DNA of 64,000 bases from Streptomyces sp. NBC_00376 (GTDB lineage: Bacteria > Actinomycetota > Actinomycetes > Streptomycetales > Streptomycetaceae). The DNA is taken from contig NZ_CP107960.1 in the NCBI RefSeq assembly GCF_036077095.1, positions 1,488,001-1,552,000 of the forward strand. Direction: 5' to 3'. Positions 8,516 through 48,972 of this stretch are shown here, piece after piece; positions within the stretch are counted from its first letter, which is position 1, and every line of letters begins with the position of its first letter. A program made the translations under genes and the position numbers. The notes below the pieces were generated by a model. That model saw only the letters and a program-made list of their open reading frames with translations. It ran no database searches and was not told the DNA's origin.

Positions 8516-10120
8516 ATGACGAAACGTCCGGTAATTCTTTTCGCCGTCGGTGCGACGGTCGCCGGCCTGGTGACCACCGCACCGGCCACGGCAACCGCCG
8601 ACAACGGCGCGCGGCCCGCCGCCGCGAAGCTCGAATGGACCGACTGCGCCACGAAGTCCTATCCGCGGCTGCAGTGCTCATCGGTCAGTACACCGCTCGA
8701 CCATGACAATCCGTCGGGCCGGCAGATCACCCTCGCCCTGTCCCGCGTCCCGCACACCGCGAAGACCTTCCAGGGCCCTCTGCTCGTCAACCCGGGCGGC
8801 CCCGGGGGCAGCGGTCTGTCGATGGCCGGATTCGTGGCGTCCGCACTGCCGAAGGCGGTCGCCGCGCAGTACGACGTGATCGGCTTCGATCCCCGCGGCG
8901 TCGGGAAGAGCAGGCCGGCGCTGGACTGCGTACCGGACTACTTCGCCCCGGTGCGCCCCGACTCGGTGCCCGGCTCGCTCGGCGTCGAGGCGGCCAACCG
9001 CAACCGGGCCCGTTCGTTCGCCGAGGCGTGCGGGCGCGAGTACCCGGATCTGCTGCCGTACATGGACACGATCAGCGCCGCGAAGGACCTCGACGTGATC
9101 CGGCGCGCCACCGGCTCCCGGCAGCTCAACTACTTCGGGTACTCCTACGGCACCTACCTCGGCGCGGTGTACGGCAAGCTCTTCCCGGAGCGGGTGCGGC
9201 GCTTCGTCCTCGACTCGAACGTGGACCCCGACGGTGTCTGGTACGACGACAACATCGGCCAGAACTACGCCTTCGACGCCCGCCACAAGGCGTTCGCCGC
9301 CTGGGTGGCGAAGCACGACTCCACGTACCGGCTCGGCAGCGACCCGGCGAAGGTCGAGGCGGCCTGGTACGCGATGCGCGAGGCCGTCAAGGCACGGCCG
9401 GCGGGCGGGAAGGTCGGCCCGAGCGAACTGGAGGACACCTTCCTGCCGGGCGGCTACTACAACGGGTACTGGCCCTACCTGGCCGAGGTGTTCGCCGCGT
9501 ACACCGACGACGGCGACCAGGACGCGCTCGTGAAGGCGTACAAGAAATTCGGCGCGGCCGACGCCGAGGACGACAACGGGTACTCGGTCTACGCGGCCGT
9601 GCAGTGCCGCGACGCCCAGTGGCCCCGGCAGTGGAACACCTGGCGCGCCGACAGCCTTCGGGTGCACACCAAGGCGCCCTTCTACACCTGGAACAACGCC
9701 TGGTACAACGCCCCTTGTGCCGACTGGCCGGTGGAGCCGCTGAATCCGGTGCGGGTCTCCAACAACGACCTTCCGCCGGTACTGCTCTTCCAGGCCACCG
9801 ACGACGCGGCCACGCCGTACGAGGGCGGGGTCACCCTGCACCGCAGGCTGCGCGGCTCCAGCCTGGTCGTCGAGCAGGGCGGCGGCAATCACGGCATCAC
9901 GCTGAGCGGCAACGACTGCCTGGACACCTACCTCGTGGACTATCTCGCCAAGGGCACCGTCCCGCGCGGCGAGGGCAGCCGGGCCGGCGCGGACGCGGTG
10001 TGCGCCAAGTCCCCCGACCCGCAGCCGCTGACCGGCGAGGCGGCTTCGAGGTCGGTGCGGCGGACGGGCACCGGCAGCAGGGGCGCCACCCTGCACGGGC
10101 TGCTCGGTTTCCGCGGCTGA
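8516..10120 (+). CDS. secreted tripeptidyl aminopeptidase-type alpha/beta hydrolase
   Basis: Encodes 534 residues with a signal peptide (basic MTKRP, hydrophobic stretch, TATA-like cleavage region near residue 29). The alpha/beta hydrolase core shows the oxyanion loop NPGGPGGSG, the nucleophile elbow GYSYGTYLG (Ser210) and a C-terminal TAP-like domain ending in a catalytic-His context (GGNHGITLSG). This is the family of Streptomyces Tap/SlpD/SlpE mycelial aminopeptidases that release tripeptides from extracellular proteins. ATG 8516 follows GGGAGG four bases upstream. Conserved cysteines may form disulfides. Confidence 0.9.
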   Translation: MTKRPVILFAVGATVAGLVTTAPATATADNGARPAAAKLEWTDCATKSYPRLQCSSVSTPLDHDNPSGRQITLALSRVPHTAKTFQGPLLVNPGGPGGSGLSMAGFVASALPKAVAAQYDVIGFDPRGVGKSRPALDCVPDYFAPVRPDSVPGSLGVEAANRNRARSFAEACGREYPDLLPYMDTISAAKDLDVIRRATGSRQLNYFGYSYGTYLGAVYGKLFPERVRRFVLDSNVDPDGVWYDDNIGQNYAFDARHKAFAAWVAKHDSTYRLGSDPAKVEAAWYAMREAVKARPAGGKVGPSELEDTFLPGGYYNGYWPYLAEVFAAYTDDGDQDALVKAYKKFGAADAEDDNGYSVYAAVQCRDAQWPRQWNTWRADSLRVHTKAPFYTWNNAWYNAPCADWPVEPLNPVRVSNNDLPPVLLFQATDDAATPYEGGVTLHRRLRGSSLVVEQGGGNHGITLSGNDCLDTYLVDYLAKGTVPRGEGSRAGADAVCAKSPDPQPLTGEAASRSVRRTGTGSRGATLHGLLGFRG

Positions 10121-11318: not shown

Positions 11319-11682
11319 GACCGTCAGCGTATCGGCGGGGACTCTGCGTATCGAGGGGCGGGGGAAATGTGGCATGGGGCACAGCGAGCCGGGGCTGGCG
11401 CGCTCGTTACCCGGCAGTTAATCTCATGTGAGCGGGACACCATCCCCGCTTGCTCCGGTGGCCTGGTGACGCAGCCACCCGGAGTGCTTGTCGGTTCGGC
11501 AGTTCTGCAGACGTGACTCCGGGACAGAGTCCGTCGCCCCTTCCGGGTCCGGGCGTGCCCATGGCGCGCCGGCCCCGAGTACCACGACACGCAACTCCCG
11601 CACGTGTCGCGCCGGTTCTCCCTTTTCACAGTGCGCGCTCCGTGCCTCCTCACAGTCGTCACTCATTCTCTGGAGTCCCGTG
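11319..11682. other. 364-bp divergent intergenic region
   Basis: Between the HEAT-repeat gene (minus) and the 3-hydroxyacyl-CoA dehydrogenase gene (plus). It holds an imperfect inverted repeat TTACCCGGCAGTTAA (11407-11421), a hairpin with arms at about 11455-11462 and 11474-11481, and a direct repeat of CGTATCG. I see no convincing ORF with Streptomyces codon bias and no copy of the GGCACTGAGTGCC palindrome found elsewhere in the window. Confidence 0.5.
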
Positions 11683-13464
11683 ATGGACACCCCGCTCAGC
11701 ACCATTGCCGTCGTCGGTCTCGGCACCATGGGCACCGGCATCGCCGAGGTCCTGGCCCGTGCCGGCCACGAGGTCATCGGCATCGACATCAGCGACGAGG
11801 CCGCCCGCCGGGCCGTCGCCGCCCTGGAAGCCGCGACCGCCCGCGCCGTGCGGCGCGAGCGGATCACCGAGGAGGAGCGGGGCGACGCCCTCGCCCGGTT
11901 CCGCACCTCCGCCGACCTGCGGGCCGCCGCGGAGGCGGAGCTCGTCATCGAGGTCGTGCCCGAGTCGTACGAGATCAAGCAGCAGGTCTTCCGGGAGCTC
12001 GACGCCATCGTCTCCCCCACCACGATCCTGGCGACCGGCACCAACGCCCTGTCCGTGACGCGGCTGGCCGCCGAGTCGCTGCGCCCGGAGCGCGTGCTCG
12101 GCCTGCACTTCTTCAACCCGGCGCCCGCGATGAAGCTGGTCGAGGTGGTCTCCTCGGTGCTGACCGCGCCGCCGGCCGTCGAGACCGTCACCGCGCTCGC
12201 CCGTAGCCTGGGCAAGGAACCGGTCGCGGTCGGCGACCGGCCGGGCTTCGTCGCCGACGGCCTGCTGTTCGGCTACCTCAACCAGGCCGCCGCGATGTAC
12301 GAGGCCAACTACGCCTCCCGGGAGGACATCGACGCGGCGATGAAGCTCGGCTGCGGTCTGCCGATGGGTCCGCTCGCCCTGCTCGACCTGATCGGGATCG
12401 ACACCGCCCGCACCGTGCTGGAGGCGATGTACGCCGAGTCGCACGACCGGCTGCACGCCCCGGCGCCGGTGCTCAGGCAGCTGAGCGAGGCGGGGCTGAC
12501 CGGCCGCAAGGCGGGCCGCGGCTTCTACACGTACGAGGGGCCCGGCAGCCAGACCGTGGTGCCGGACGCCCTGACGCCGGGCGACGACGGATCGGCATCG
12601 GCCGGGCGCACGGTGCGTTCGATGGGTGTCGCGGGTTCCGGGACGATGGCCTCGGGCATCGCCGAGGTCTTCGCGAAGGCCGGGTACGACGTGGTGCTCG
12701 CCGCCCGCGGCCAGGAGAAGGCGGACACCGCCAAGGGCCGGATCGCCAAGTCGCTGGAGCGCTCCGTCACCAAGGGGCGGCTGACGGCCGAGGCGCGGGA
12801 CGCCGCCCTGGCCCGGATCACCGCGGCCGGTTCGCTGGACGCCTTCGCCGATGTCGACCTCGCGGTGGAGGCCGTCGCCGAGGATCTCTCAGTCAAGCAG
12901 CAGCTGTTCGGGACCCTGGACAAGGTCTGCAAGCCTGGTGCCGTGCTCGCCACCACCACCTCGTCGCTGCCGGTCGTCGCGATCGCGCGGGCCACCTCGC
13001 GTCCCGAGGACGTGATCGGGATGCACTTCTTCAACCCTGCGCCGGCGATGAAGCTGGTCGAGGTGGTCCGTACGGTGCTCACCGCCGACGATGTCCACGC
13101 CACCGTCCGCGAGGTGTGCGGCAAGGTCCGCAAGCACCCGGTGGACTGCGGGGACCGGGCCGGTTTCATCGTGAACGCGCTGCTGTTCCCGTACCTCAAC
13201 AACGCGATCAAGATGGTCGAGGAGCACTACGCGACGCTCGACGACATCGACGCGGCGATGAAGCTGGGCGGCGGCTACCCGATGGGCCCGTTCGAACTGC
13301 TCGACGTCGTCGGTCTCGATGTCTCGCTGGCCATCGAGAAGGTGCTGCACAGCGAGTTCCGCGACCCGGGCCTGGCCCCGGCGCCGCTGCTCGAACACCT
13401 GGTGGCCGCCGGCTGCCTCGGCCGCAAGACGGGGCGCGGCTTCCGCGAACATGCCCGGCGCTGA
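11683..13464 (+). CDS. tandem-duplicated 3-hydroxyacyl-CoA (3-hydroxybutyryl-CoA) dehydrogenase
   Basis: Encodes 593 residues made of two complete ~290-residue 3-hydroxyacyl-CoA dehydrogenase units. Each has its own dinucleotide site (VGLGTMGTGIAEV; VAGSGTMASGIAEV), catalytic-His loop (LHFFNPAPAMKLVEVV; MHFFNPAPAMKLVEVV) and C-terminal helical domain (GYLNQAAAMYEANYAS; PYLNNAIKMVEEHYAT). The family oxidises 3-hydroxyacyl-CoA with NAD(P)+ or runs in reverse; with ccr nearby, interconversion of acetoacetyl- and 3-hydroxybutyryl-CoA feeding crotonyl-CoA is the likely role. ATG 11683 with TGGAG seven bases upstream is chosen over the long upstream frame. Confidence 0.9.
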   Translation: MDTPLSTIAVVGLGTMGTGIAEVLARAGHEVIGIDISDEAARRAVAALEAATARAVRRERITEEERGDALARFRTSADLRAAAEAELVIEVVPESYEIKQQVFRELDAIVSPTTILATGTNALSVTRLAAESLRPERVLGLHFFNPAPAMKLVEVVSSVLTAPPAVETVTALARSLGKEPVAVGDRPGFVADGLLFGYLNQAAAMYEANYASREDIDAAMKLGCGLPMGPLALLDLIGIDTARTVLEAMYAESHDRLHAPAPVLRQLSEAGLTGRKAGRGFYTYEGPGSQTVVPDALTPGDDGSASAGRTVRSMGVAGSGTMASGIAEVFAKAGYDVVLAARGQEKADTAKGRIAKSLERSVTKGRLTAEARDAALARITAAGSLDAFADVDLAVEAVAEDLSVKQQLFGTLDKVCKPGAVLATTTSSLPVVAIARATSRPEDVIGMHFFNPAPAMKLVEVVRTVLTADDVHATVREVCGKVRKHPVDCGDRAGFIVNALLFPYLNNAIKMVEEHYATLDDIDAAMKLGGGYPMGPFELLDVVGLDVSLAIEKVLHSEFRDPGLAPAPLLEHLVAAGCLGRKTGRGFREHARR

Positions 13465-13555: not shown

Positions 13556-14371
13556 ATGTCCCAGCCCGCCAGGTCCCCCCGTGTCTCCGCCGCGCCCGAC
13601 GCACAGGAAAGTGCCGCCGGCACGCGCGCCGCCGCCCAACGGCTCAAAATGCGCCGTGAACTGGCCGCCGCGGCGATGGAACTCTTCGCCACGAAGGGGT
13701 ACGAAGCGACGACGGTCGACGAGATCGCGGGCGCCGCCGGGGTCGCCCGGCGGACCTTCTTCCGGCACTTCCGCTCCAAGGAAGAGGCGATCTTCCCGGA
13801 CCACGACGACACCCTCGTCAGGGCCGAGGCCGTCCTCAATGCCGCACCGGCGCACGAGCACCCCCTCGACACCGTCTGCCGCGGCATCAAGGAAGTCATG
13901 AAGATGTACGCGGCGAAGCCCGCGGTCTCCGTGGCCCGATACAAACTGACCCGCGAGGTCCCCACCCTGCGCGAGGCGGAGATCGCCTCGGTGGCCCGCT
14001 ACGAGCGGCTGTTCACCCGCTATCTGCTGGGCCATTTCGACGAGCGCGACCACCATGTCGGCAACGACGACCCGCTGCTGGCGGAGGTCGCGGCGTCCGC
14101 CGTGGTCACCGCGCACAACCACGTCCTGCGCCGCTGGCTGCGGGCGGGCGGCGAGGGCGACGTGGAGGCCCAGCTCGACCACGCCTTCGCGATCGTCCGC
14201 GACACCTTCGGGAGCGGCATCGGAGCCGGCCGGACCGTCGGCGCCGAGCCAGCGAAGCAGCCCGCCGCCTCGGTGGCCTCCCAGGGCGAGGTGCTGGTCG
14301 CCGTGGCGCGGACCGACGCACCGCTCGACGAAGTGATGCGCACGATCCAGCAGGCGCTCCAGGCCCGCTGA
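13556..14371 (+). CDS. TetR-family regulator (paralogue of the one at 46049-46756)
   Basis: Encodes 271 residues. The N-terminal helix-turn-helix is typical (MELFATKGYEATTVDEIAG, GVARRTFFRHFRSKEEAIFPDH, residues ~45-90). The ligand domain shares signatures with the second TetR in the window: VARYKLTREVPTLRE, HNHVLRRWLRAGGEGD and a distinctive C-terminal VAVARTDAPLDEVMRTIQQAL. It has a disordered N-terminus and lies between the hydroxyacyl-CoA dehydrogenase and ethylmalonyl-CoA genes, so an acyl-CoA ligand is plausible. Its likely operator is the palindrome in the ccr promoter (15351-15385). ATG 13538 is an alternative start. Confidence 0.85.
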   Translation: MSQPARSPRVSAAPDAQESAAGTRAAAQRLKMRRELAAAAMELFATKGYEATTVDEIAGAAGVARRTFFRHFRSKEEAIFPDHDDTLVRAEAVLNAAPAHEHPLDTVCRGIKEVMKMYAAKPAVSVARYKLTREVPTLREAEIASVARYERLFTRYLLGHFDERDHHVGNDDPLLAEVAASAVVTAHNHVLRRWLRAGGEGDVEAQLDHAFAIVRDTFGSGIGAGRTVGAEPAKQPAASVASQGEVLVAVARTDAPLDEVMRTIQQALQAR

Positions 14372-14460: not shown

Positions 14461-15255
14461 ATGAATCATCATCACGAAGCACTGCTGACCGTCTTCGACC
14501 GCGAGATGCGCGAGCACGCCCGCCCCGACGGCCCCGGGGTCCGGGTGGAGCGCACCGGCGACGTCGTACGGCAGGTCGGCGCGGCCGACGACTGGAACGG
14601 TGTCGTCTGGTCATCCCCGGACCTGGCTCCCGCTCGGGCGGACGCGGTGATCGCGGCCCAGGTGGCGCACTACACGGCGCTCGGGCACGGCGAATTCGAG
14701 TGGAAGCTGTACGCGCACGACCGGCCGGCCGATCTGGACCGGCGGCTGCTGGCGGCCGGTTTCGAGGCGGAGGAGCCGGAGACCCTGCTGGTCGCCCCGG
14801 TCGCGGAGCTCTCGACGCGGGTGGAGCTCCCCGACGGCGTTCGGCTGCGCACCGTGCGTGACGCGGACGACGTGGAGCTGATGGCCCTCGCCCATGAGCG
14901 GGCGTTCGGCTCCGACTGGTCGCGGCTGCGGCATCAGGTGCCGGCCCGGCTGGCCGAGGACCCGGACGGTTTCGTCGGCGTGCTCGCCATGGCGGGTGAC
15001 GAGCCGGTGAGCTCGGCCCGGATGGAGCTGTACCCGGGCACGGGCTTCGCGGGGCTCTGGGGCGGCGGCACGGTCGAGGCATGGCGCGGAAAGGGCCTCT
15101 ACCGGGCCCTGGTGGCCTTCCGCGCCCAGATCGCGGTGGAGCGCGGCTACGGCTACCTTCAGGTCGATGCCACCGACATGAGCGCTCCGATCCTCCGGCG
15201 GCTCGGATTCCGCGCGCTGAGCACCACGACGCCCTATGTGTACCGCTCGCACTGA
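14461..15255 (+). CDS. GNAT family N-acetyltransferase
   Basis: Encodes 264 residues with a C-terminal GNAT domain: acetyl-CoA site VEAWRGKGLYRALVAFRAQI and the following VDATDMSAPILRRLGFRAL. The N-terminal ~110 residues form a second, degenerate GNAT-like half (KLYAHDRPADLDRRLLAAGFEAEEPETLLV), an arrangement common in streptomycete acetyltransferases. Substrate unknown. It starts at ATG 14461 without a clear ribosome site; TGTGGT lies six bases upstream and could be a -10. It stands alone between the tetR terminator and the ccr regulatory region. Confidence 0.82.
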   Translation: MNHHHEALLTVFDREMREHARPDGPGVRVERTGDVVRQVGAADDWNGVVWSSPDLAPARADAVIAAQVAHYTALGHGEFEWKLYAHDRPADLDRRLLAAGFEAEEPETLLVAPVAELSTRVELPDGVRLRTVRDADDVELMALAHERAFGSDWSRLRHQVPARLAEDPDGFVGVLAMAGDEPVSSARMELYPGTGFAGLWGGGTVEAWRGKGLYRALVAFRAQIAVERGYGYLQVDATDMSAPILRRLGFRALSTTTPYVYRSH

Positions 15256-15350: not shown

Positions 15351-15392
15351 GGCACCGAGTGCCTTGCCAGGTGTCACGGAGTGCCATACGTT
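15351..15392 (+). promoter_or_regulatory. ccr promoter flanked and filled by two TetR-type operators
   Basis: GGCACCGAGTGCC (15351-15363) abuts a -35 TTGCCA (15364-15369). A second copy, GTCACGGAGTGCC (15373-15385), fills the spacer, and TACGTT (15387-15392) is the -10, 17 bp from the -35. The copies are 22 bp apart, two helical turns. The same layout occurs upstream of etfB (46788-46829) and of the DUF35 gene (45985-46027). Sites are read directly; TetR binding is inferred. Confidence 0.65.
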
Positions 15393-15620: not shown

Positions 15621-16958
15621 GTGAAGGAAATCCTGGACGCGATCCAATCGCAGGACAGCACAGCCGCGGACTTCGCGGCCCTGTCCATCCCCGAGTCGTA
15701 CCGCGCGGTGACCGTGCACAAGGACGAGACCGAGATGTTCCACGGGCTCGCCACTCGCGACAAGGACCCCCGCAAGTCGCTGCACCTCGACGAGGTCCCG
15801 GTGCCCGAACTCGGGCCCGGCGAGGCCCTGGTGGCCGTCATGGCGAGTTCGGTGAACTACAACTCCGTCTGGACCTCGATCTTCGAGCCGATGTCCACCT
15901 TCGGCTTCCTGGAGCGCTACGGAAAGCTCAGCGAGCTCACCCGGCGCCACGACCTGCCGTACCACGTCATCGGTTCCGACCTGGCGGGCGTCGTCCTGCG
16001 CGCCGGCCCCGGCGTCAACGCCTGGCACCCCGGCGACGAGGTCGTCGCCCACTGCCTCTCGGTCGAGCTGGAGTCCTCGGACGGCCACAACGACACGATG
16101 CTCGACCCCGAGCAGCGGATCTGGGGCTTCGAGACCAACTTCGGCGGCCTGGCGGAGATCGCGCTCGTCAAGTCCAACCAGCTGATGCCGAAGCCTCAGC
16201 ACCTCAGCTGGGAGGAGGCCGCCGCTCCGGGCCTGGTCAACTCCACCGCGTACCGCCAGCTCGTCTCGCGCAACGGCGCGGGGATGAAGCAGGGCGACAA
16301 CGTGCTGATCTGGGGCGCCAGCGGCGGACTCGGCTCGTACGCCACGCAGTTCGCGCTGGCCGGCGGCGCCAACCCGGTCTGCGTCGTCTCCAGCGAGCAG
16401 AAGGCCGACATCTGCCGGAAGATGGGCGCCGAGGCGATCATCGACCGCAACGCCGAGGGCTACAAGTTCTGGAAGGACGAGCACAACCAGGACCCGCGCG
16501 AGTGGAAGCGCTTCGGCAAGCGCATCCGTGAACTCACCGGCGGCGAGGACGTGGACATCGTCTTCGAGCACCCGGGCCGCGAGACCTTCGGCGCCTCGGT
16601 GTACGTGACCCGCAAGGGCGGCACGATCGTCACCTGCGCCTCCACCTCCGGCTACAACCACGAGTACGACAACCGCTACCTGTGGATGTCGCTGAAGCGG
16701 ATCGTGGGCTCGCACTTCGCCAACTACCGCGAGGCGTGGGAGGCCAACCGGCTCGTCGCCAAGGGCAAGATCCACCCCACGCTGTCGAAGGTCTACTCGC
16801 TGGAGGAGACCGGCCAGGCCGCGTACGACGTCCACCGCAACCTCCACCAGGGCAAGGTCGGCGTGCTGGCGCTCGCCCCGCGCGAGGGGCTCGGCGTGCG
16901 CAACGAGGAACTGCGCGAGCAGCACATCGACGCCATCAACCGCTTCCGGAACGTCTGA
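15621..16958 (+). CDS. ccr: crotonyl-CoA carboxylase/reductase
   Basis: Encodes 445 residues, the family's usual length. It reductively carboxylates crotonyl-CoA with CO2 and NADPH to ethylmalonyl-CoA, the key step of the ethylmalonyl-CoA pathway and a source of polyketide extender units. The CO2-pocket residues known from the Kitasatospora enzyme are present at identical numbers: N81 (VNYN), F170-E171 (WGFETN) and H365 (VGSHFAN). The MDR-type nucleotide site GASGGLGSYATQ is intact. GTG 15621 follows GGAGG by six bases. It is the first gene of an operon with meaA, mcl, mch and mcd. Confidence 0.97.
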   Translation: MKEILDAIQSQDSTAADFAALSIPESYRAVTVHKDETEMFHGLATRDKDPRKSLHLDEVPVPELGPGEALVAVMASSVNYNSVWTSIFEPMSTFGFLERYGKLSELTRRHDLPYHVIGSDLAGVVLRAGPGVNAWHPGDEVVAHCLSVELESSDGHNDTMLDPEQRIWGFETNFGGLAEIALVKSNQLMPKPQHLSWEEAAAPGLVNSTAYRQLVSRNGAGMKQGDNVLIWGASGGLGSYATQFALAGGANPVCVVSSEQKADICRKMGAEAIIDRNAEGYKFWKDEHNQDPREWKRFGKRIRELTGGEDVDIVFEHPGRETFGASVYVTRKGGTIVTCASTSGYNHEYDNRYLWMSLKRIVGSHFANYREAWEANRLVAKGKIHPTLSKVYSLEETGQAAYDVHRNLHQGKVGVLALAPREGLGVRNEELREQHIDAINRFRNV

Positions 16959-16959
16959 C

Positions 16960-18972
16960 ATGAGTGGGCGTCAGAAGGACCGCCCGTGGCTCATGCGGAC
17001 GTACGCCGGTCACTCGACCGCCGAGGCGTCCAACGAGCTCTACCGGCGCAACCTCGCCAAGGGCCAGACCGGCCTGTCGGTCGCCTTCGACCTGCCGACG
17101 CAGACCGGGTACGACCCCGACCACATCCTCGCCCGCGGCGAGGTCGGCCGGGTCGGCGTGCCGGTGTCGCACCTCGGTGACATGCGCCGGCTGTTCCAGG
17201 ACATCCCCCTGGAGCAGATGAACACCTCGATGACGATCAACGCCACCGCGATGTGGCTGCTTGCGCTCTACCAGGTGGTCGCGGAGGAACAGGGCGCCGA
17301 TCCCACCCGGCTCCAGGGCACCACGCAGAACGACATCGTCAAGGAGTACCTCTCGCGCGGGACGCACGTCTTCCCGCCCGGTCCCTCGCTGCGGCTGACC
17401 ACCGACATGATCACGTACACGGTCAACCGCATCCCGAAGTGGAACCCGATCAACATCTGCAGCTACCACCTGCAGGAGGCGGGGGCCACTCCGGTCCAGG
17501 AGATCGCGTACGCCATGTCGACGGCGATCGCCGTGCTCGACGCGGTCCGTGACTCGGGGCAGGTGCCCGAGGAGAAGTTCGGCGATGCCGTCGCCCGGAT
17601 CTCCTTCTTCGTGAACGCGGGCGTCCGCTTCATCGAGGAGATGTGCAAGATGCGCGCCTTCGGCCGCATCTGGGACCGGATCACCCGCGAGCGGTACGGC
17701 ATCACCGACGCCAAGCAGCGCCGCTTCCGCTACGGCGTCCAGGTCAACTCCCTCGGCCTGACCGAGGCGCAGCCGGAGAACAACGTCCAGCGCATCGTCC
17801 TGGAGATGCTGGCCGTCACGCTCTCCAAGGACGCCCGCGCCCGCGCCGTCCAGCTGCCGGCCTGGAACGAGGCGCTGGGGCTCCCCCGGCCCTGGGACCA
17901 GCAGTGGTCGCTCCGCATCCAGCAGGTGCTCGCGCACGAGAGCGACCTGCTGGAGTACGAGGACATCTTCGCCGGGTCGCACGTCATCGAGGCCAAGGTG
18001 GACGAGCTGGTCGCCGAGTCGCTCGCCGAGATCGACCGGATCGAGCGGATGGGCGGCGCCATGGCGGCCGTCGAGTCCGGCTATCTGAAGTCCGAGCTGG
18101 TCTCCTCGCACGCCGCCCGCCGGGCCCGGATCGAGGGCGGCGAGGAGAAGATCGTCGGCGTCAACATCTACGAGACGACGGAGCCGAACCCGCTCACCGC
18201 GGACCTCGACGGGGCGATCATGACGGTCGACCCGGCCAACGAGGCCCGGGTCGTCGCCGCCCTGCACGACTGGCGCGACAACCGCGACGAGGCCCGCGCC
18301 ACGGAGGCGCTGGCGGCGCTGAAGAAGGCCGCCGCGGGCACCGAGAACATGATGGAAGCGACCGTGGAGTGCGCCCGCGCGGGTGTCACCACCGGCGAGT
18401 GGTCCTGGGCGCTGCGCGACGTCTTCGGTGAGTTCCGGGCCCCGACGGGCGTTTCGTCGGCGCCGGTCGCGGTGACCGCCGAGGCGGGCACCCCGCTCGC
18501 CCTGGTCCGAGAGAAGGTCGCCCGCACCGCGGCCGACCTGGGCGCCGGGCGGCTGCGGCTGCTGGTCGGCAAGCCGGGCCTGGACGGGCACTCCAACGGC
18601 GCCGAGCAGATCGCCGTGCGGGCCCGTGACGCCGGCTTCGAGGTCGTCTACCAGGGGATCAGGCTGACCCCCGAACAGATCGTCTCGGCCGCCCTCGCCG
18701 AGGACGTGCACTGCGTCGGTCTGTCGATCCTGTCCGGCTCGCACGCCGAGCTCGTACCGGACGTGCTCACCCGGCTGCGCGAGGCGGGCGCCGCCGACAT
18801 CCCGGTCATCGCGGGCGGGATCATTCCGCCCGCCGACGCGTCGGCCCTGATCGGGGCCGGTGTCGCCGCCGTATTCACCCCGAAGGATTTCGGTATCACG
18901 GAGATCATCGGCCGTATCGTCGACGAGATCCGGAAAGCGAACAAGCTCGACCCTCTGGAGGTCCCCGCATGA
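16960..18972 (+). CDS. meaA: ethylmalonyl-CoA mutase, B12-dependent
   Basis: Encodes 670 residues: an N-terminal methylmalonyl-CoA-mutase-type TIM barrel ([19 protein letters not shown]) and a C-terminal cobalamin-binding domain with the DxHxxG motif ([13 protein letters not shown], ~residue 550) and a SIxSGSH loop. It converts (2R)-ethylmalonyl-CoA to (2S)-methylsuccinyl-CoA. Single-subunit length and pairing with ccr distinguish it from methylmalonyl-CoA mutase. The start lies one base after the ccr stop, pointing to translational coupling; no strong ribosome site is visible. It overlaps mcl by four bases. Confidence 0.94.
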
Positions 18973-19931
18973 CTGCCGTCAACCGCCTGCGCCCGCGCCG
19001 TTCGTGTCTGGCAGTGCCCGGCTCGAACCCGCGGTTCCTGGAGAAGGCCCAGGGCCTCCCGGCCGACCAGGTCTTCCTGGACCTGGAGGACGCCTGCGCG
19101 CCGCTCGCCAAGGAGGGCGCCCGGCACACCATCGTCGACGCGCTGAACAACGGTGACTGGACGGGCAAGACCCGGGTCGTGCGGGTGAACGACTGGACCA
19201 CGCACTGGACGTACCGCGACGTCATCACGGTCGTCGAGGGCGCCGGCCAGAACCTCGACTGCATCATGCTGCCGAAGGTCCAGGACGCCCAGCAGGTCGT
19301 GGCGCTGGACCTGCTGCTGACCCAGATCGAGAAGACGATGGGCTTCGAGGTCGGGAAGATCGGCATCGAGGCGCAGATCGAGAACGCCAAGGGCCTCGTC
19401 AACATCGACGACATCGCCGCCGCCTCGCCCCGCCTGGAGACGCTGATCTTCGGCCCGGCCGACTTCATGGCGTCGATCAACATGAAGACCCTGGTCGTCG
19501 GTCAGCAGCCGCCCGGCTACGGCGCGGACGCCTACCACTACATCCTGATGCGCATTCTGATGGCGGCCCGTACGCACGACCTCCAGGCGATCGACGGCCC
19601 CTTCCTGCAGATCCGTGACGTGGACGCGTACCGCGAGGTCGCGGGCCGTGCGGCGGCGCTGGGCTTCGACGGCAAGTGGGTACTGCACCCGGGTCAGGTC
19701 GACGCCGCCAACGAGGTGTTCTCGCCCTCGCAGGAGGACTACGACCACGCCGAGCTGATCCTCGACGCGTACGAGTGGTGCACCTCCGAGGAGGGCGGCA
19801 AGAAGGGCTCGGCGATGCTGGGCGACGAGATGATCGACGAGGCGAGCCGCAAGATGGCCCTGGTCATCGCGGGCAAGGGCCGCGCGGCCGGCATGCAGCG
19901 CACCTCCAAGTTCGAAGCGCCGGAGGCCTGA
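18969..19931 (+). CDS. mcl: L-malyl-CoA/beta-methylmalyl-CoA lyase (HpcH/HpaI-CitE family)
   Basis: Encodes 320 residues of the CitE-like barrel family. Visible features are the N-terminal RSCLAVPGSNPRFLEKA, the metal/phosphate region FLDLEDACAP with acidic ligands, the IEAQIENAKGL strand with a catalytic-site Glu, and FGPADFMASI. In the ethylmalonyl-CoA pathway this enzyme cleaves beta-methylmalyl-CoA to glyoxylate and propionyl-CoA. The ATG overlaps the meaA stop (ATGA) and GGAGG lies seven bases upstream. Assignment rests on family and on the operon. Confidence 0.92.
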   Translation: MTAVNRLRPRRSCLAVPGSNPRFLEKAQGLPADQVFLDLEDACAPLAKEGARHTIVDALNNGDWTGKTRVVRVNDWTTHWTYRDVITVVEGAGQNLDCIMLPKVQDAQQVVALDLLLTQIEKTMGFEVGKIGIEAQIENAKGLVNIDDIAAASPRLETLIFGPADFMASINMKTLVVGQQPPGYGADAYHYILMRILMAARTHDLQAIDGPFLQIRDVDAYREVAGRAAALGFDGKWVLHPGQVDAANEVFSPSQEDYDHAELILDAYEWCTSEEGGKKGSAMLGDEMIDEASRKMALVIAGKGRAAGMQRTSKFEAPEA

Positions 19932-19933
19932 TC

Positions 19934-20461
19934 GTGCAGTTCGGACGCACATACGAGGAGTTCGAGGTCGGTGCGGTCTACAAGCACTGGCCCGGGAAGA
20001 CGGTCACCGAGTACGACGACCACCTCTTCTGCCTGCTGACCATGAATCATCACCCGTTGCACATGGACAGCAACTACGCGGAGCGGACGACGGATTTCGG
20101 GAAGAACGTTGTCGTCGGCAACTACATCTACTCGCTGCTGCTCGGCATGTCCGTTCCGGACGTCTCCGGAAAGGCGATCGCCAATCTCGAGGTCGAGTCG
20201 CTGAAGCACGTCGCCCCGACCTTCCACGGCGACACGATCTACGGCGAGACGACGGTTCTGGACAAGACTCCGTCAAAGTCCAAGAACGACCGCGGAATCG
20301 TCCACGTGGAGACCAAGGGGTACAAGCAGGACGGCACGCTGGTCTGCGTGTTCCGCCGCAAGGTGATGGTCCCCACCGAGACGTACATCAAGGAGCGCGG
20401 CGGTGAGCAGCCAGGCCGCCCCGAACTGAACCAGCCTTCGCAGAAGAACGTGGAGAAGTAG
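19934..20461 (+). CDS. mch: mesaconyl-CoA hydratase, MaoC-like
   Basis: Encodes 175 residues. A single hot-dog MaoC domain with the hydratase motif region (LLTMNHHPLHMDSNYA, the Asp/His dyad context) and VGNYIYSLLLGMSV. In this operon it should hydrate mesaconyl-CoA to beta-methylmalyl-CoA; the general family is R-specific enoyl-CoA hydratases. GTG 19934, two bases after the mcl stop, is chosen because GGAGG lies seven bases upstream inside mcl. The stop is two bases before mcd, so coupling is likely. Confidence 0.9.
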   Translation: MQFGRTYEEFEVGAVYKHWPGKTVTEYDDHLFCLLTMNHHPLHMDSNYAERTTDFGKNVVVGNYIYSLLLGMSVPDVSGKAIANLEVESLKHVAPTFHGDTIYGETTVLDKTPSKSKNDRGIVHVETKGYKQDGTLVCVFRRKVMVPTETYIKERGGEQPGRPELNQPSQKNVEK

Positions 20462-20463
20462 CC

Positions 20464-21669
20464 ATGACGCGACTCGCCCAGACCGCCGGCCTCACCGACG
20501 TCCAGCAGGAAATCCTCTCCACGGTCCGGGATTTCGTCGACAAGGAGATCATTCCGGTCGCGACCCAGCTGGAACACCGTGACGAGTACCCCACCGAGAT
20601 CGTCGAGGGGCTCAAGGAACTCGGCCTGTTCGGGCTGATGATCCCCGAGGAGTACGGGGGCCTGGGTGAGTCGCTTCTCACATACGCGCTGTGCGTGGAG
20701 GAAATCGCCCGCGGCTGGATGAGCGTTTCGGGAATCATCAACACGCACTTCATCGTGGCGTACATGCTCAAGCAGCACGGCACCCAGGAGCAGAAGGACA
20801 CCTTCCTGCCGCGCATGGCACTGGGCGAGGTCCGGGGCGCGTTCTCGATGTCCGAGCCGGCGCTGGGCTCGGACGTCTCCGCGATCACCTCCAAGGGCGT
20901 CAGGGACGGCGAGGAGTACGTCCTCAACGGCCAGAAGATGTGGCTGACGAACGGTGGCACGTCCTCGCTCGTCGCCGTTCTGTGCCGGAGTGACGAAGGC
21001 CACCCCGAGGGGACCGCCCCGCACAAGTCGATGACCACATTCCTGGTGGAGAAGGAGCCCGGATTCGGCGAGGTCCGACCCGGACTCACTATTCCCGGCA
21101 AAATCGACAAAATGGGCTACAAGGGCGTCGACACGACCGAACTCATCATGGACGGGCTACGAATTCCGGCCAATCGAGTGCTGGGCGGCACCACCGGCCG
21201 AGGCTTTTACCAAATGATGGACGGCGTCGAGGTCGGCCGGGTGAATGTGGCGGCGCGTGGCTGCGGTGTCGCACAGCGTGCATTCGAGCTTGGTGTTTCC
21301 TACGCCCAGCAGCGGCAGACCTTCGGAAAGCCGATCGCCCAGCACCAGGCGATCCAGTTCAAGCTGGCCGAAATGGCCACCAAGGTGGAAGCCGCCCATG
21401 CAATGATGGTAAATGCAGCGCGCAAAAAGGACTCCGGGGAACGAAACGACCTGGAGGCAGGGATGGCGAAGTACCTCGCCTCCGAGTACTGCAAGGAAGT
21501 CGTCGAGGACGCCTTCCGTATCCACGGCGGTTACGGCTTCTCCAAGGAGTACGAGATCGAGCGCCTCTACCGGGAGGCCCCGATGCTGCTTATCGGTGAA
21601 GGTACCGCCGAGATCCAGAAAATGATCATCGGGCGCCGACTCCTCGAGGAGTACCGGTTCCAGGGGTGA
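20464..21669 (+). CDS. mcd: (2S)-methylsuccinyl-CoA dehydrogenase, acyl-CoA dehydrogenase family
   Basis: Encodes 401 residues with the three acyl-CoA dehydrogenase domains: N-terminal helices, a middle beta domain (FSMSEPALGSDVSAI; QKMWLTNGG) and C-terminal helices with the FAD-adenosine loop (RIHGGYGFSKEYEIERLYREA). It oxidises methylsuccinyl-CoA to mesaconyl-CoA and passes electrons to electron-transfer flavoprotein, whose genes are at 46866-48741. ATG 20464 has GGAG upstream, overlapping the mch end. It is the last pathway gene of the operon. Substrate is inferred from the operon; the family alone would also allow butyryl-type substrates. Confidence 0.9.
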   Translation: MTRLAQTAGLTDVQQEILSTVRDFVDKEIIPVATQLEHRDEYPTEIVEGLKELGLFGLMIPEEYGGLGESLLTYALCVEEIARGWMSVSGIINTHFIVAYMLKQHGTQEQKDTFLPRMALGEVRGAFSMSEPALGSDVSAITSKGVRDGEEYVLNGQKMWLTNGGTSSLVAVLCRSDEGHPEGTAPHKSMTTFLVEKEPGFGEVRPGLTIPGKIDKMGYKGVDTTELIMDGLRIPANRVLGGTTGRGFYQMMDGVEVGRVNVAARGCGVAQRAFELGVSYAQQRQTFGKPIAQHQAIQFKLAEMATKVEAAHAMMVNAARKKDSGERNDLEAGMAKYLASEYCKEVVEDAFRIHGGYGFSKEYEIERLYREAPMLLIGEGTAEIQKMIIGRRLLEEYRFQG

Positions 21670-45544: not shown

Positions 45545-45928
45545 TCAGAGCCAGCCGTCGTCCCTCGGCGGGTCGCAGAGCTCGAAGACCACTTCGCCCG
45601 CGTCCGGGCCGTCCGCGACGACGGGACGCACCTGGGCGCCGACCGCCACGCGGTGCGGGGCCGCGCCCACGACACGGCAGCGGAACACGAAGCCCTCGGG
45701 GAGACGGACGAGGGACTCGTTGCGTGCGGCGTCCGTGTAGCGGTGGACGACGCCGGACCGCACCACGACACCCAGGCCGGCGCTGCGCTCGGGCTGCAGG
45801 TCACCCGACGCGCACACCGGGCACAGCAGCCTGCGGAAGGAGGCCGTGCCGCACCAGCGGCAGCGGTGGTACTCCAGCCCGGCTTCCTCATGCACCGTCT
45901 GCACGGTGCCACTTGATGACTGGGACAC
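45545..45928 (-). CDS. DUF35 OB-fold/zinc-ribbon protein (acyl-CoA-associated)
   Basis: Encodes 127 residues: an N-terminal rubredoxin-like zinc ribbon ([22 protein letters not shown], two CxxC pairs) and an OB-fold domain ([12 protein letters not shown]...[24 protein letters not shown]). DUF35 proteins work with thiolases and acyl-CoA aldolases, but none is adjacent. GTG 45928 with AGGGG six bases upstream is chosen; ATG 45964 is in frame but lacks a site. Its promoter (45985-46027) carries the same double operator as ccr and etfBA, so it probably belongs to that acyl-CoA regulon. Confidence 0.82.
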
Positions 45929-45984
45929 GTTCGACCCCCTGCGCTCGGCTCGGATGCGCCGCACCTGCGCGTCGGCGCGTCCGC

Positions 45985-46027
45985 ACCATAGGGCACTGAG
46001 TGCCGGGACGTAAAGACACTCAGTGCC
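45985..46027 (-). promoter_or_regulatory. DUF35-gene promoter with two TetR-type operators
   Basis: Reading the minus strand: GGCACTGAGTGTC (46027-46015), TTTACG as -35 (46014-46009), four bases, the perfect palindrome GGCACTCAGTGCC (46004-45992), one base, then TATGGT as -10 (45990-45985). Operators are 23 bp apart and the -35/-10 spacer is 18 bp. The upper operator abuts the -35 exactly as at ccr and etfB. Confidence 0.65.
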
Positions 46028-46048: not shown

Positions 46049-46756
46049 TCAGCCCTGCCCGATGACGGACTCGATCTGCTGCACCACGCGCCACATCGGA
46101 GCCCCCTTCGAGGCGACCATCACCACCACATCGCCGTCCGTCGAAGGCATCGACGTACCCTCTTCCGCCTCGCTCCCCCACACCCGGTGCACCATCCCGA
46201 GCGCGTGGTCGACGGCGGCCTCCGCATCCCCCTCGCCACCCGAACGCAGCCAGGTCCGCAGCCCGTTGTTGTGCGCCGCGACCACGGACGCGGCGATCAC
46301 CTCGGCGCGCAGCGCCCCGTCGCCCGACTCCCCGTACCTGCCACGCAGATATCCGGCCATCGTCTGCTCGTACCGACGCACCACCGACAGCTCGTAGGTA
46401 CGCAGTCCGGGGACCTCCCGGGTGAGCCGGTACCGCTGGACGGAGAACTCCGGGTTGGCGGAGTACATGCGCAGCACCAGCCTGGCCGCGTCGCTCACCG
46501 CGTCCACCGGATCGGCGTCGCCGGCCCGTTCCAGGAACGCGGTCATGTCGGCGAGGCACCGCTCGTGGTCCGGGAAGACCGCGTCCTCCTTGGACGGGAA
46601 GTACCGGAAGAACGACCGGCGCCCGACCCCGGCCCGCGCCACGATGTCGTCCACCGTGGTCTGTTCGAAGCCCCGCTCCAGGAAGAGCTGGAAGGCCGCC
46701 TCGGCGAGCACCTCCCGCATCGGTGCCTTCTTCGCTGGTCTGCGCGCGTCAGTCAT
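46049..46756 (-). CDS. TetR-family regulator (paralogue of the one at 13556-14371)
   Basis: Encodes 235 residues. Helix-turn-helix: [19 protein letters not shown] and [22 protein letters not shown]. It shares with the first TetR the recognition-helix pattern (RRxFFRxFxSKEdAxFPDH), [35 protein letters not shown] and a C-terminal [20 protein letters not shown]. Nearly identical recognition helices imply overlapping DNA targets. It sits between the DUF35 gene and etfB, each behind a double operator; the etfB operator also overlaps its own upstream region, so autoregulation is likely. ATG 46756 is preferred; GTG 46792 is in frame. Confidence 0.87.
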
Positions 46757-46787: not shown

Positions 46788-46829
46788 GACACCGGGTACC
46801 TTTACAGAGGGTACTGAGTGCCATACTGT
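46788..46829 (+). promoter_or_regulatory. etfBA promoter with two TetR-type operators
   Basis: GACACCGGGTACC (46788-46800) abuts the -35 TTTACA (46801-46806); GGTACTGAGTGCC (46810-46822) fills the 17-bp spacer, and TACTGT (46824-46829) is the -10. Predicted start of transcription near 46836 leaves a ~30-nt leader before etfB. The upper site is the most degenerate of the six copies. The region also lies directly upstream of the divergent tetR gene. Confidence 0.65.
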
Positions 46830-46865
46830 CGTCCCTACGAACCACACCCAGGTAGGAGAGCCGGC

Positions 46866-47651
46866 GTGAGCTTGAGGATCGTTGTCTGTGTGAAGTACGT
46901 GCCCGACGCCACCGGTGACCGGCATTTCGCCGATGACCTGACGGTGGACCGTGAGGATGTGGACGGTCTGCTGTCGGAGCTCGATGAGTACGCGGTGGAG
47001 CAGGCGTTGCAGATCGCGGACGAGGCGGACGAGGCTGAGGTCACCGTGTTGACGGTGGGTCCGGAGGATGCCAAGGACGCGTTGCGCAAGGCGTTGTCGA
47101 TGGGTGCGGACAAGGCGGTTCATGTCGAGGACGACGATCTGCACGGCAGTGATGTGATGGCTACGTCGCTGGTGCTGGCGAAGGCTGTGGAGAAGGCCGG
47201 GTACGACCTGGTGGTCTCGGGGATGGCGTCGACGGACGGGACGATGGGTGTGGTCCCGGCGTTGCTGGCGGAGCGTCTGGGTGTGCCGCAGGTGACGTTG
47301 CTGTCCGAGGTGTCGGTGGCGGACGGTGTGGTGCGGGGCCGTCGTGACGGTGACAGTGCCTCGGAGCGGGTGGAGGCGTCGTTGCCGGCGGTGGTGTCGG
47401 TGACGGACCAGTCGGGTGAGGCGCGTTACCCGTCGTTCAAGGGGATCATGGCGGCGAAGAAGAAGCCGGTCCAGTCGTGGGATCTGGAGGATCTGGGGAT
47501 CGAGGCCGGTGAGGTGGGTCTGGAGGGTTCCTGGAGCGTGGTCGATTCGGCGGCGGAGCGTCCGGCGCGGACGGCGGGCACGATCGTGAAGGACGAGGGC
47601 GAGGGCGGCCGTCTGCTGGCGGAGTTCCTGGCGGGCCAGAAGTTCATCTGA
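46866..47651 (+). CDS. etfB: electron transfer flavoprotein beta subunit
   Basis: Encodes 261 residues. Family features: IVVCVKYVPDATGD at the start, ELDEYAVEQALQIAD, VLTVGPEDAKDALRKALSMGAD and the signature VSGMASTDGTMGVVPALLAERLG, which binds AMP. With EtfA it accepts electrons from acyl-CoA dehydrogenases such as Mcd and passes them to ETF:quinone oxidoreductase. GTG 46866 follows GGAG by seven to eight bases. Its third codon positions use many G and T (TTG, GTG, GGT), unlike the C-rich neighbours. Confidence 0.95.
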   Translation: MSLRIVVCVKYVPDATGDRHFADDLTVDREDVDGLLSELDEYAVEQALQIADEADEAEVTVLTVGPEDAKDALRKALSMGADKAVHVEDDDLHGSDVMATSLVLAKAVEKAGYDLVVSGMASTDGTMGVVPALLAERLGVPQVTLLSEVSVADGVVRGRRDGDSASERVEASLPAVVSVTDQSGEARYPSFKGIMAAKKKPVQSWDLEDLGIEAGEVGLEGSWSVVDSAAERPARTAGTIVKDEGEGGRLLAEFLAGQKFI

Positions 47652-47778
47652 CCCTGGCCCCCGGCGCCCGGCCCCTGGCCCCGGTTCCGGTTCCGGTGTC
47701 TGTTCGGTTTCGGGTTGGGGTTGTGGTTCCTGTTGTGCTCCCCCTGTTTCTTCGTTACTCGCAGGAGATTGAAGTCCC

Positions 47779-48741
47779 ATGGCTGAAGTTCTGGTTTTTG
47801 TCGATCACGTGGACGGTGCGGTTCGCAAGCCCACGCTGGAGTTGCTGACGCTGGCGCGTCGTCTGGGTGAGCCGGTGGCGCTCGCGGTGGGCGCGGGTGC
47901 CGGTGGTACGGCGGCGGTGCTGGGTGAGCACGGTGCGGTGCGGGTGCTGACGGCGGAGGATGCCGAGTTCGGCGAGTACCTCGTGGTGCCGAAGGTGGAT
48001 GCTTTGCAGGCGGCGTACGAGGCGGTGTCGCCGGTGGCGGTGCTGGTGCCGTCGTCGGCGGAGGGCAAGGAGATCGCGGCGCGTCTGGCGGTGCGGATCG
48101 GTTCGGGTCTGATCACCGATGCGGTGGATCTGGAGGCCGGTGAGCAGGGTCCGGTGGCCACGCAGTCGGCGTTCGCGGCGTCGTTCAGCACGCGGTCGCG
48201 GGTGTCGCGGGGCACGCCGGTGATCACGGTGAAGCCGAACTCGGCTCCGGTCGAGCCGGTCGCGGCGGCGGGTGCGGCGGAGGTGCTGGCGGTGTCGTTC
48301 TCGGCGCTGGCGACGGGGACGCGGGTGACCGCGCGGACGCCGCGTGAGGCGACGGGCCGTCCGGAGCTGACCGAGGCGGCGATCGTGGTCTCGGGTGGCC
48401 GTGGGGTCAACGGTGCGGAGAACTTCGCGCTGATCGAGGCGCTCGCGGACTCGCTGGGTGCGGCCGTGGGTGCCTCGCGTGCGGCGGTGGACGCGGGCTG
48501 GTACCCGCATTCCAACCAGGTCGGCCAGACCGGCAAGTCCGTGTCCCCGCAGCTGTACATCGCGTCGGGGATCTCGGGTGCGATCCAGCACCGGGCCGGG
48601 ATGCAGACCTCGAAGACGATCGTCGCGATCAACAAGGACGCCGAGGCCCCGATCTTCGACCTCGTGGACTACGGCGTCGTCGGCGACCTCTTCCAGGTCG
48701 TTCCCCAGCTCACCGACGAGGTCAAGTCCCGCAAGGGCTGA
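47779..48741 (+). CDS. etfA: electron transfer flavoprotein alpha subunit
   Basis: Encodes 320 residues. N-terminal EtfA/B-like domain ([19 protein letters not shown]) and the C-terminal FAD domain with [52 protein letters not shown] and [22 protein letters not shown]. It binds the redox FAD. AGGAG lies about ten bases before ATG 47779. The 127-bp gap after etfB is a repetitive G/T- and C-rich stretch with no promoter evident, so cotranscription is likely. The first two thirds share the etfB codon bias; a strong terminator follows. Confidence 0.95.
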
Positions 48742-48772
48742 CCCCCGGCCAGGCCGGAACACCCCCATCCGA

Positions 48773-48818
48773 CGGTCCGGGGCCGTGTGGCGCACACGCA
48801 CCACACGGCCCCGGACCG
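48773..48818 (+). terminator. strong terminator after etfA
   Basis: A perfect 18-bp stem: 48773-48790 (beginning CGGTCCGGGGCC) pairs with 48801-48818 around a 10-nt loop, followed by TTTCC. It lies 32 bases after the etfA stop. Confidence 0.85.
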
Positions 48819-48972
48819 TTTCCGCCTGCCGTCACGAGCGACCGCACGGCCAGAGTAAAAGCATGGCAAAACACGCTCGTCAAGCGGCTGCCCGGACCGT
48901 CTGAGCGATCCTTTTCGGACTTTCCCGCCCACTGAGCCCTCCTGGCTCAGGAAGCCCTGTGACCGGCCCTAT

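Follow-up and report, generated by a model that had tools for sequence, protein, structure and literature searches.

Paired palindromes flanking the -35 box of ccr, etfB and DUF35 gene promoters in Streptomyces: putative operators of two MftR-like TetR regulators

Palindrome pairs at three promoters

The ccr locus raises the question of how the ethylmalonyl-CoA pathway is controlled in Streptomyces and which genes share this control. The pathway is the acetate growth route of Streptomyces without a glyoxylate cycle, as shown for S. tsukubaensis (PMC4606968, available in part), and can supply ethylmalonyl-CoA to polyketide synthases. In the literature covered (titles and abstract openings, with few subscription journals), no Streptomyces regulator of the pathway is described. 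The first-pass annotation of the window, i.e. the whole stretch of 64,000 nt analysed, had proposed two palindromic operators at the ccr promoter and the same arrangement, in both orientations, at etfB and a DUF35 gene.

The consensus of the 13-bp palindrome is GGCACTNAGTGCC. Six copies are arranged as three pairs with a partner distance of 22-23 bp, and one pair each flanks the -35 box of ccr, etfB and the DUF35 gene. On re-reading, the coordinates and sequences of all six sites were correct, and the recurrence of order and spacing was confirmed for both orientations (22 vs 23 bp). The promoter elements are as follows.

15351..15363, + strand: putative upstream ccr operator GGCACCGAGTGCC, abutting the -35 box; kept in 35/35 genus ccr promoters read
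15364..15369, + strand: inferred ccr -35 hexamer TTGCCA; TTG invariant in 35/35
15373..15385, + strand: putative ccr spacer operator GTCACGGAGTGCC; position 6 is G in 34/35
15387..15392, + strand: inferred ccr -10 hexamer TACGTT, 17 bp from the -35 box
46788..46800, + strand: putative upstream etfB operator GACACCGGGTACC, the weakest of the six sites
46801..46806, + strand: inferred etfB -35 box TTTACA
46810..46822, + strand: putative etfB spacer operator GGTACTGAGTGCC
46824..46829, + strand: inferred etfB -10 box TACTGT; spacer 17 bp
46015..46027, - strand: putative upstream operator of the DUF35 gene GGCACTGAGTGTC
46009..46014, - strand: inferred -35 box of the DUF35 gene TTTACG; TTTAC conserved
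45992..46004, - strand: putative spacer operator of the DUF35 gene GGCACTCAGTGCC, a perfect palindrome
45985..45990, - strand: inferred -10 box of the DUF35 gene TATGGT; consensus ATA[TC]GGTG in relatives

In all three promoters, the upstream palindrome is followed by the -35 box, the spacer palindrome and the -10 box. Judged by the predicted and conserved -35 and -10 boxes, the putative operators would overlap the core promoter. The distance between the operators tracks the promoter spacing, since both are one bp longer at the DUF35 gene (spacer of 18 bp, operator distance of 23) than at ccr and etfB (17 bp and 22). Compared to GGCACTNAGTGCC, the site at 45992 has no mismatch, those at 15351, 46015 and 46810 have one, the one at 15373 has two and the one at 46788 has four.

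With a probability of about 0.7, the palindromes are operators of two MftR-like TetR repressors that occlude the promoters, are released by acyl-CoA and jointly induce their targets upon release. The sites, their geometry and conservation, the linkage to TetR genes and the agreement with a published MftR operator are read directly from the sequence; the identity of the binding protein, its repressing action, the inducer and the joint response of the targets are what we infer from them.

Chance palindromes and conservation at ccr

Short palindromes may also arise by chance in GC-rich DNA. Lone sites are not enriched in the host genome (10.04 Mb, 3 contigs), which has 20 with one mismatch or none vs 21 for a reversed control. 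As the count equals the control, the single-motif count was dropped as evidence. Within the window, four sites with at most one mismatch were observed vs about 0.17 expected from 30 simulations. When two sites 22 or 23 bp apart are scored together and up to five mismatches are allowed over both, exactly three pairs are found in the window and none in 60 simulated windows, which yielded eight pairs with six mismatches. The earlier judgement that chance is unlikely and that nothing comparable lies elsewhere in the window thus holds for pairs: the window has no further pair as good, and the simulated windows have none. The 22-bp paired pattern, allowing up to three mismatches, is found in the host genome at ccr (0 mismatches), at etfB (1) and at one place on contig C3 (3), with one match for the control. 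The three perfect sites of this genome precede the DUF35 gene, a citrate synthase gene and a family III CoA-transferase gene.

Sites with one mismatch beyond the three promoters were inspected at nine loci of the host genome (L005-L007, L011-L016). Three lie inside likely genes and none is a convincing promoter site by eye, L013 being the nearest to one; the inspection covered all but five such sites, two of which are on other contigs.

The ccr pair precedes an operon of ethylmalonyl-CoA pathway genes.

15621..16958, + strand: ccr, crotonyl-CoA carboxylase/reductase (TIGR01751, 636.6 bits vs a cut-off of 378.55)
16960..18972, + strand: acyl-CoA mutase of the ethylmalonyl-CoA operon (PF01642, PF02310); name meaA/ecm inferred from position
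18969..19931, + strand: HpcH/HpaI-type lyase (PF03328); name malyl-CoA lyase inferred from position
19676..20461, + strand: mesaconyl-CoA hydratase (PF19315, MC_hydratase); true start probably near 19928
20464..21669, + strand: acyl-CoA dehydrogenase (PF00441/PF02771); name methylsuccinyl-CoA dehydrogenase inferred from position

Ccr was searched in 61 genomes, 37 of them from the genus, and the promoter was read in 35 of these 37; the other two are G010, which has no ccr, and G008, in which the match is broken. The pair is found at exactly 22 bp in all 35 promoters. The two palindromes have the same fixed columns, namely positions 1, 3-5, 9-11 and 13, and variation is confined to positions 2, 6-8 and 12. 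In the gap between them, the TTG of the -35 box is invariant and five of the remaining six bases vary. The sequence ATACGTTG following the second palindrome is nearly invariant. A 43-bp ccr pattern with up to two mismatches is present in 186 of 200 Streptomyces genomes, with no match for the control. The 14 genomes lacking it include G008, whose ccr is broken, and G018, where the pair is present but followed by a different -10 box. Twelve further genomes, including Kitasatospora xanthocidica, K. griseola, Streptomyces griseus and Actinacidiphila bryophytorum, all carry the ccr pair (one control match in one of them). No pair with at most six mismatches was found in the 15 promoters read of ccr paralogues within the genus or of orthologues outside the family.

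Scans of the complete genome and of other Streptomyces genomes had been proposed as a check. The former gives a divided result: the lone motif is as common as the reversed control, and the paired pattern is rare. The latter bears out the ccr pair, with 35/35 promoters and 186/200 genomes vs none for the control. The signal resides in pairing, promoter placement and conservation, with lone sites meaning little. Chance is a practically negligible explanation, contradicted by the pairing, the invariant columns and already by the conservation across genomes.

A further pattern, GNCACNNNGTGYCATANNNTG, matches in 21 of 37 genomes (one control match in one genome). Thirty of its loci were read: 28 are located at ccr or the DUF35 gene, one (L170) lies within a gene and one (L169) at a ccr remnant in G010 (G010:C2:795250). 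There, ccr and most of the mutase gene are lost; the spacer palindrome survives, the upstream palindrome has decayed and the frame of the ccr-linked TetR gene is intact.

Two TetR regulators near the sites

Two TetR genes are found near the palindrome pairs.

46049..46756, - strand: TetR-1, MftR-like, 235 aa (PF00440 and the MftR C-terminal domain PF17754), between the DUF35 and etfB pairs
13556..14371, + strand: TetR-2, ccr-linked, 271 aa (PF00440), upstream of ccr
11488..13464, + strand: 3-hydroxyacyl-CoA dehydrogenase (PF02737, PF00725), upstream of TetR-2

The two regulators are paralogues with 43% identity. TetR-1 matches PF17754 with 34.8 bits, above the threshold of 22.7, and stays below the NCBIfam cut-off for MftR (TIGR03968, 96.3 bits vs 224.9). 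For TetR-2, the Pfam search returned only TetR_N, with no PF17754 match at 0.001. The identified neighbours of the TetR genes are etfBA, the DUF35 gene, ccr and the 3-hydroxyacyl-CoA dehydrogenase gene. In 32 of 35 loci, TetR-2 precedes ccr by no more than 1.5 kb: the distance from its end to ccr is 387-891 bp in 29 loci and about 1.25 kb in the host genome, G019 and G029. In the host genome, a GNAT acetyltransferase gene (window 14461-15255) separates the two genes.

Of 80 loci of TetR-1 relatives, 71 carry a pair (five or fewer mismatches) towards etfB and 68 carry one towards the DUF35 gene; these are the best 80 of 118 relatives, hence the closest ones and an uneven sample. Autoregulation of TetR-1 is likely, since the upstream etfB palindrome covers its probable -35 box (by eye). 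At five loci (L147-L151), the flanks of the TetR-1 homologue are without an operator. The homologue follows an apparent acyl-CoA dehydrogenase gene there (recognised by eye from the C-terminus), and the same genomes carry pairs elsewhere, at ccr and etfB.

Within either paralogue (80 and 27 rows), the recognition-helix residues RR[ST]FFR[YH]F do not vary, and they are near-identical between the two, so that either TetR could bind every site. Alternatively, labour may be divided: TetR-2 would act on ccr via a CACG-type spacer site and TetR-1 on etfB and the DUF35 gene via a CACT-type site, and the upstream ccr site would also admit TetR-1, so that ccr would integrate two signals. This is a serious possibility that falls somewhat short of even odds. 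Position 6 of the spacer site is G at ccr in 34/35 cases and T in 70/71 on the etfB side and 65/68 on the DUF35 side, a few helix residues differ consistently between the paralogues (G/A45, S/T48, Y/H52, P/R54), and each tetR gene is located near its own promoter type. Against it, most recognition-helix residues are common to both proteins and the site types differ mainly in their central bases. Such central operator bases are often not directly read by TetR dimers. The CACG/CACT difference may thus reflect a preference of TetR-2 and TetR-1, or it may be neutral. Moreover, G010 lacks ccr and keeps an intact TetR-2 frame as well as a perfect site at its citrate synthase gene. That TetR-2 was kept after the loss of ccr, together with this site, suggests that it has targets beyond ccr.

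Likeness to MftR and the proposed mechanism

The first-pass annotation had taken the sites for TetR-type operators, and they match the operator of a characterised TetR repressor, MftR (PMC8728441, available in part). The footprint of M. smegmatis MftR spans 27 bp and includes GGCACTCGATGCCATA, and the conserved core of the operator is T-N2-GGCA-N5-TGCC-N2-A (PMC8728441, in part). Within the MftR footprint, GGCACTCGATGCC is two mismatches away from the window consensus and has the same GGCA-N5-TGCC frame. In the window, this frame is exact at 15351 and 45992, and the four other sites deviate in one or both arms; exact copies are also located at 9908, 14930 and 52456, away from the three promoters. 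The consensus of the sites in relatives agrees with the frame as well. The operator match is good evidence for the family, suggestive and not decisive. It falls short of proof because single-base changes in the mycobacterial palindrome did not abolish MftR binding (PMC8728441, in part). The best solved relatives include 2RAE, the R. jostii MftR according to the same partial source, and 8X0A, which is named MftR. For MftR His68, which is needed for oleoyl-CoA, no counterpart could be assigned in TetR-1, whose invariant His64 faces a Phe in the alignments with 2RAE and 8X0A.

The window system thus shares with MftR and the mft genes the TetR family, the PF17754 domain (in TetR-1), the operator frame and the link to acyl-CoA. 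It differs in layout and targets. The described MftR footprint is a single one of 27 bp, from -79 to -53 in the numbering of that paper, whereas two predicted operators straddle the -35 box here; MftR targets are mycofactocin genes with long-chain acyl-CoA as inducer, whereas ccr, etfB and the DUF35 gene are the predicted targets here (PMC8728441, in part for both).

In the proposed mechanism, two repressor dimers would occupy the ccr, etfB and DUF35 promoters about two helical turns apart. One dimer would sit just upstream of the -35 box and the other would fill the spacer up to the -10 box, so that RNA polymerase would be excluded. Acyl-CoA accumulating on acetate, fatty acids or similar carbon sources would release the repressors, and the ethylmalonyl-CoA operon and the DUF35 protein would then be induced. 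In some species, a second ETF would be co-induced and take electrons from the acyl-CoA dehydrogenase of the operon; in many, citrate synthase genes and a CoA-transferase would be co-induced as well. Native ccr1 expression in S. tsukubaensis was below quantification on glucose/dextrin, with the operon being needed on acetate (PMC4606968, in part), and this pattern fits repression on sugar.

The TetR proteins might instead act as activators. A TetR-type activator of ccr, CcrR, is reportedly known from Methylobacterium extorquens AM1 (Hu and Lidstrom 2012), an alphaproteobacterium, and it resembles the TetR-type control of a ccr gene proposed here. A site that fills a 17-18 bp spacer up to the -10 box is in the position of a repressor, and the relative that has been characterised and shares the operator frame, MftR, is a repressor: its overexpression lowers mft transcripts, and long-chain acyl-CoAs release it (PMC8728441, in part). 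Activation is therefore a very unlikely mode of action at these sites.

It is also conceivable, albeit unlikely, that an unrelated regulator encoded elsewhere binds the motif and that the neighbouring TetR genes are coincidental. The motif is also present at distant genes, and the TetR-1 homologues at L147-L151 lack an adjacent site. Against this, each of the two paralogues lies close to the motif in the majority of loci read, and the likeness to the MftR operator again argues for the TetR proteins.

Two further systems can be compared with the repression by MftR-like proteins favoured here. AccR of Streptomyces avermitilis is said to be a TetR repressor of short-chain acyl-CoA genes with the operator GTTAA-N6-TTAAC; this motif is different from the window palindrome. 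The RamB-linked control of the ethylmalonyl-CoA pathway in Paracoccus denitrificans also concerns the choice of the acetyl-CoA assimilation route, in another host and, by the title, with another regulator (PMC10370305). No account of the motif or of an MftR-like ccr regulator in Streptomyces was found in titles and abstract openings (few subscription journals), and the letters of the motif were met only in papers unrelated by title.

DUF35 gene and duplicate ETF

The gene next to TetR-1 on the DUF35 side is short and carries its pair in most of the loci read.

45545..45964, - strand: DUF35/ChsH2-like zinc-ribbon OB-fold protein, 139 aa (PF12172 just above the gathering score, PF01796 below it)

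The protein is present in 25 of the 61 genomes searched. An upstream pair is found in 24 of the 25 best DUF35 loci of relatives, the exception (L069) having a perfect single site; five weaker DUF35 matches have no pair.

On the other side of TetR-1, the operators precede a duplicate of the ETF genes.

46866..47651, + strand: etfB, operator-bearing duplicate (PF01012)
47779..48741, + strand: etfA, operator-bearing duplicate (PF00766 and PF01012)

A second etfBA of the host genome (C1:7855635; locus L300, G000:C1:7854000-7859500) encodes the same EtfB protein. The DNA of both copies is 99.2% identical over 1,987 columns, the tract of identity extending in the window from 46852 to 48824, i.e. from 14 bp before etfB to past etfA, and their promoters are unrelated. 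Two etfB copies (at least 78% identity) are found in eight of the 37 genus genomes, and in five of these eight the copies of the same genome are each other's closest relatives. The TetR-1-linked copy carries a pair in four of the eight, namely the host genome (G000), G005, G019 and G023; identity between the two copies is 98.5-99.4% there, and in the tree they are each other's nearest neighbours. G010 has two identical copies, both without operators. The copies of G004, G015 and G025 are old, separate ones, and the one closer to TetR-1 lacks operators.

The near-identity of the operator-bearing copy to the other copy suggests gene conversion. Recent, repeated duplication is the rival explanation; gene conversion is preferred because the TetR-1-linked place is common to four genomes. 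The contig ends within 1.2 kb on the etfB side in 54 of 80 TetR-1 loci, vs one of 80 on the other side. Such breaks are as expected if near-identical copies break assemblies, which does not explain all of them: some of the 54 loci (L148-L150, L155) show no etfB.

Of 30 etfB loci read, 28 are not linked to TetR-1, and none of the 28 has a pair. Even a ccr-like single site is absent from 30 of 31 etfB copies not linked to TetR-1, the exception being that of the host genome. This site before its other etfBA copy (two mismatches to a 21-letter pattern) is taken as chance, being absent from the 30 other copies.

A wider regulon: citrate synthases and CoA-transferase

Beyond the window, a citrate synthase gene, presumably the main one, has a perfect copy of GGCACTNAGTGCC (L003:1501-1513, G000:C1:5668931) about 110 bp upstream of its likely start. 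The perfect site is found in the host genome and in all 20 relatives fetched (of about 30 with known coordinates), and may sit upstream of the promoter rather than inside it. Outside the genus, the best site has at least three mismatches in nine stretches, where the placement is estimated and promoters may be missed. A second citrate synthase gene is adjacent to what we take to be pdxH wherever its locus was read. Of 30 genus loci of this gene (L345-L374), 21 carry a site with no more than two mismatches, which is perfect in 14 of them; the host genome is among the nine without a site. Two Kitasatospora-type loci (L343, L344) even carry a pair at this gene.

In front of a family III CoA-transferase gene, a perfect palindrome precedes the ATG (L004:1501-1513, G000:C1:6726819) together with a -10-like box, and the transcript is apparently leaderless. 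A site with at most two mismatches about 10 bases before the start codon is found in eight of 24 genus orthologues, a count that excludes G030 (three mismatches, same place) and G034 (a two-mismatch site elsewhere). The pattern GRYACTNAGTGYCATA, which is unfit for ccr, occurs at 33 places in 26 of the 61 genomes, with no match for the control. The loci read are DUF35 or etfB loci, except for the CoA-transferase (three genomes), the second citrate synthase (two) and L215 (G031:C1:1788072), where a perfect palindrome is followed by ATA and no target gene is recognised.

Judged by these sites, the regulon looks wider than the three promoters of the window. The earlier interpretation, one regulon joining the ccr operon, ETF and the DUF35 gene, holds in its main outline. 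The conserved sites support the link; the targets were drawn too narrowly, and the ETF part was too general, as it concerns a duplicate copy and is not genus-wide.

The conserved operators point to two candidate repressors and a set of promoters. We rate the system as a new regulon with a known kind of repressor and an uncommon arrangement of operators in tandem; flanking the -35 box in this way, they would be a natural design for a tight acyl-CoA-inducible promoter. More tentatively, the sites might belong to a Streptomycetaceae-wide regulon in which two acyl-CoA-sensing MftR-like paralogues read one operator and set the fate of acetyl-CoA. It would comprise two citrate synthases, the ethylmalonyl-CoA pathway, the CoA-transferase and, in some lineages, a spare ETF that is kept near-identical by gene conversion and has a separate promoter. 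If true, the same switch would set the supply of ethylmalonyl-CoA and methylmalonyl-CoA, and thereby that of building blocks, since both are building blocks of polyketides.

Downstream of the citrate synthase site, at a distance of about 20-30 bp, the relatives (L375-L394) repeatedly show another palindrome, GAGTGCACTC, perhaps the site of a different regulator.
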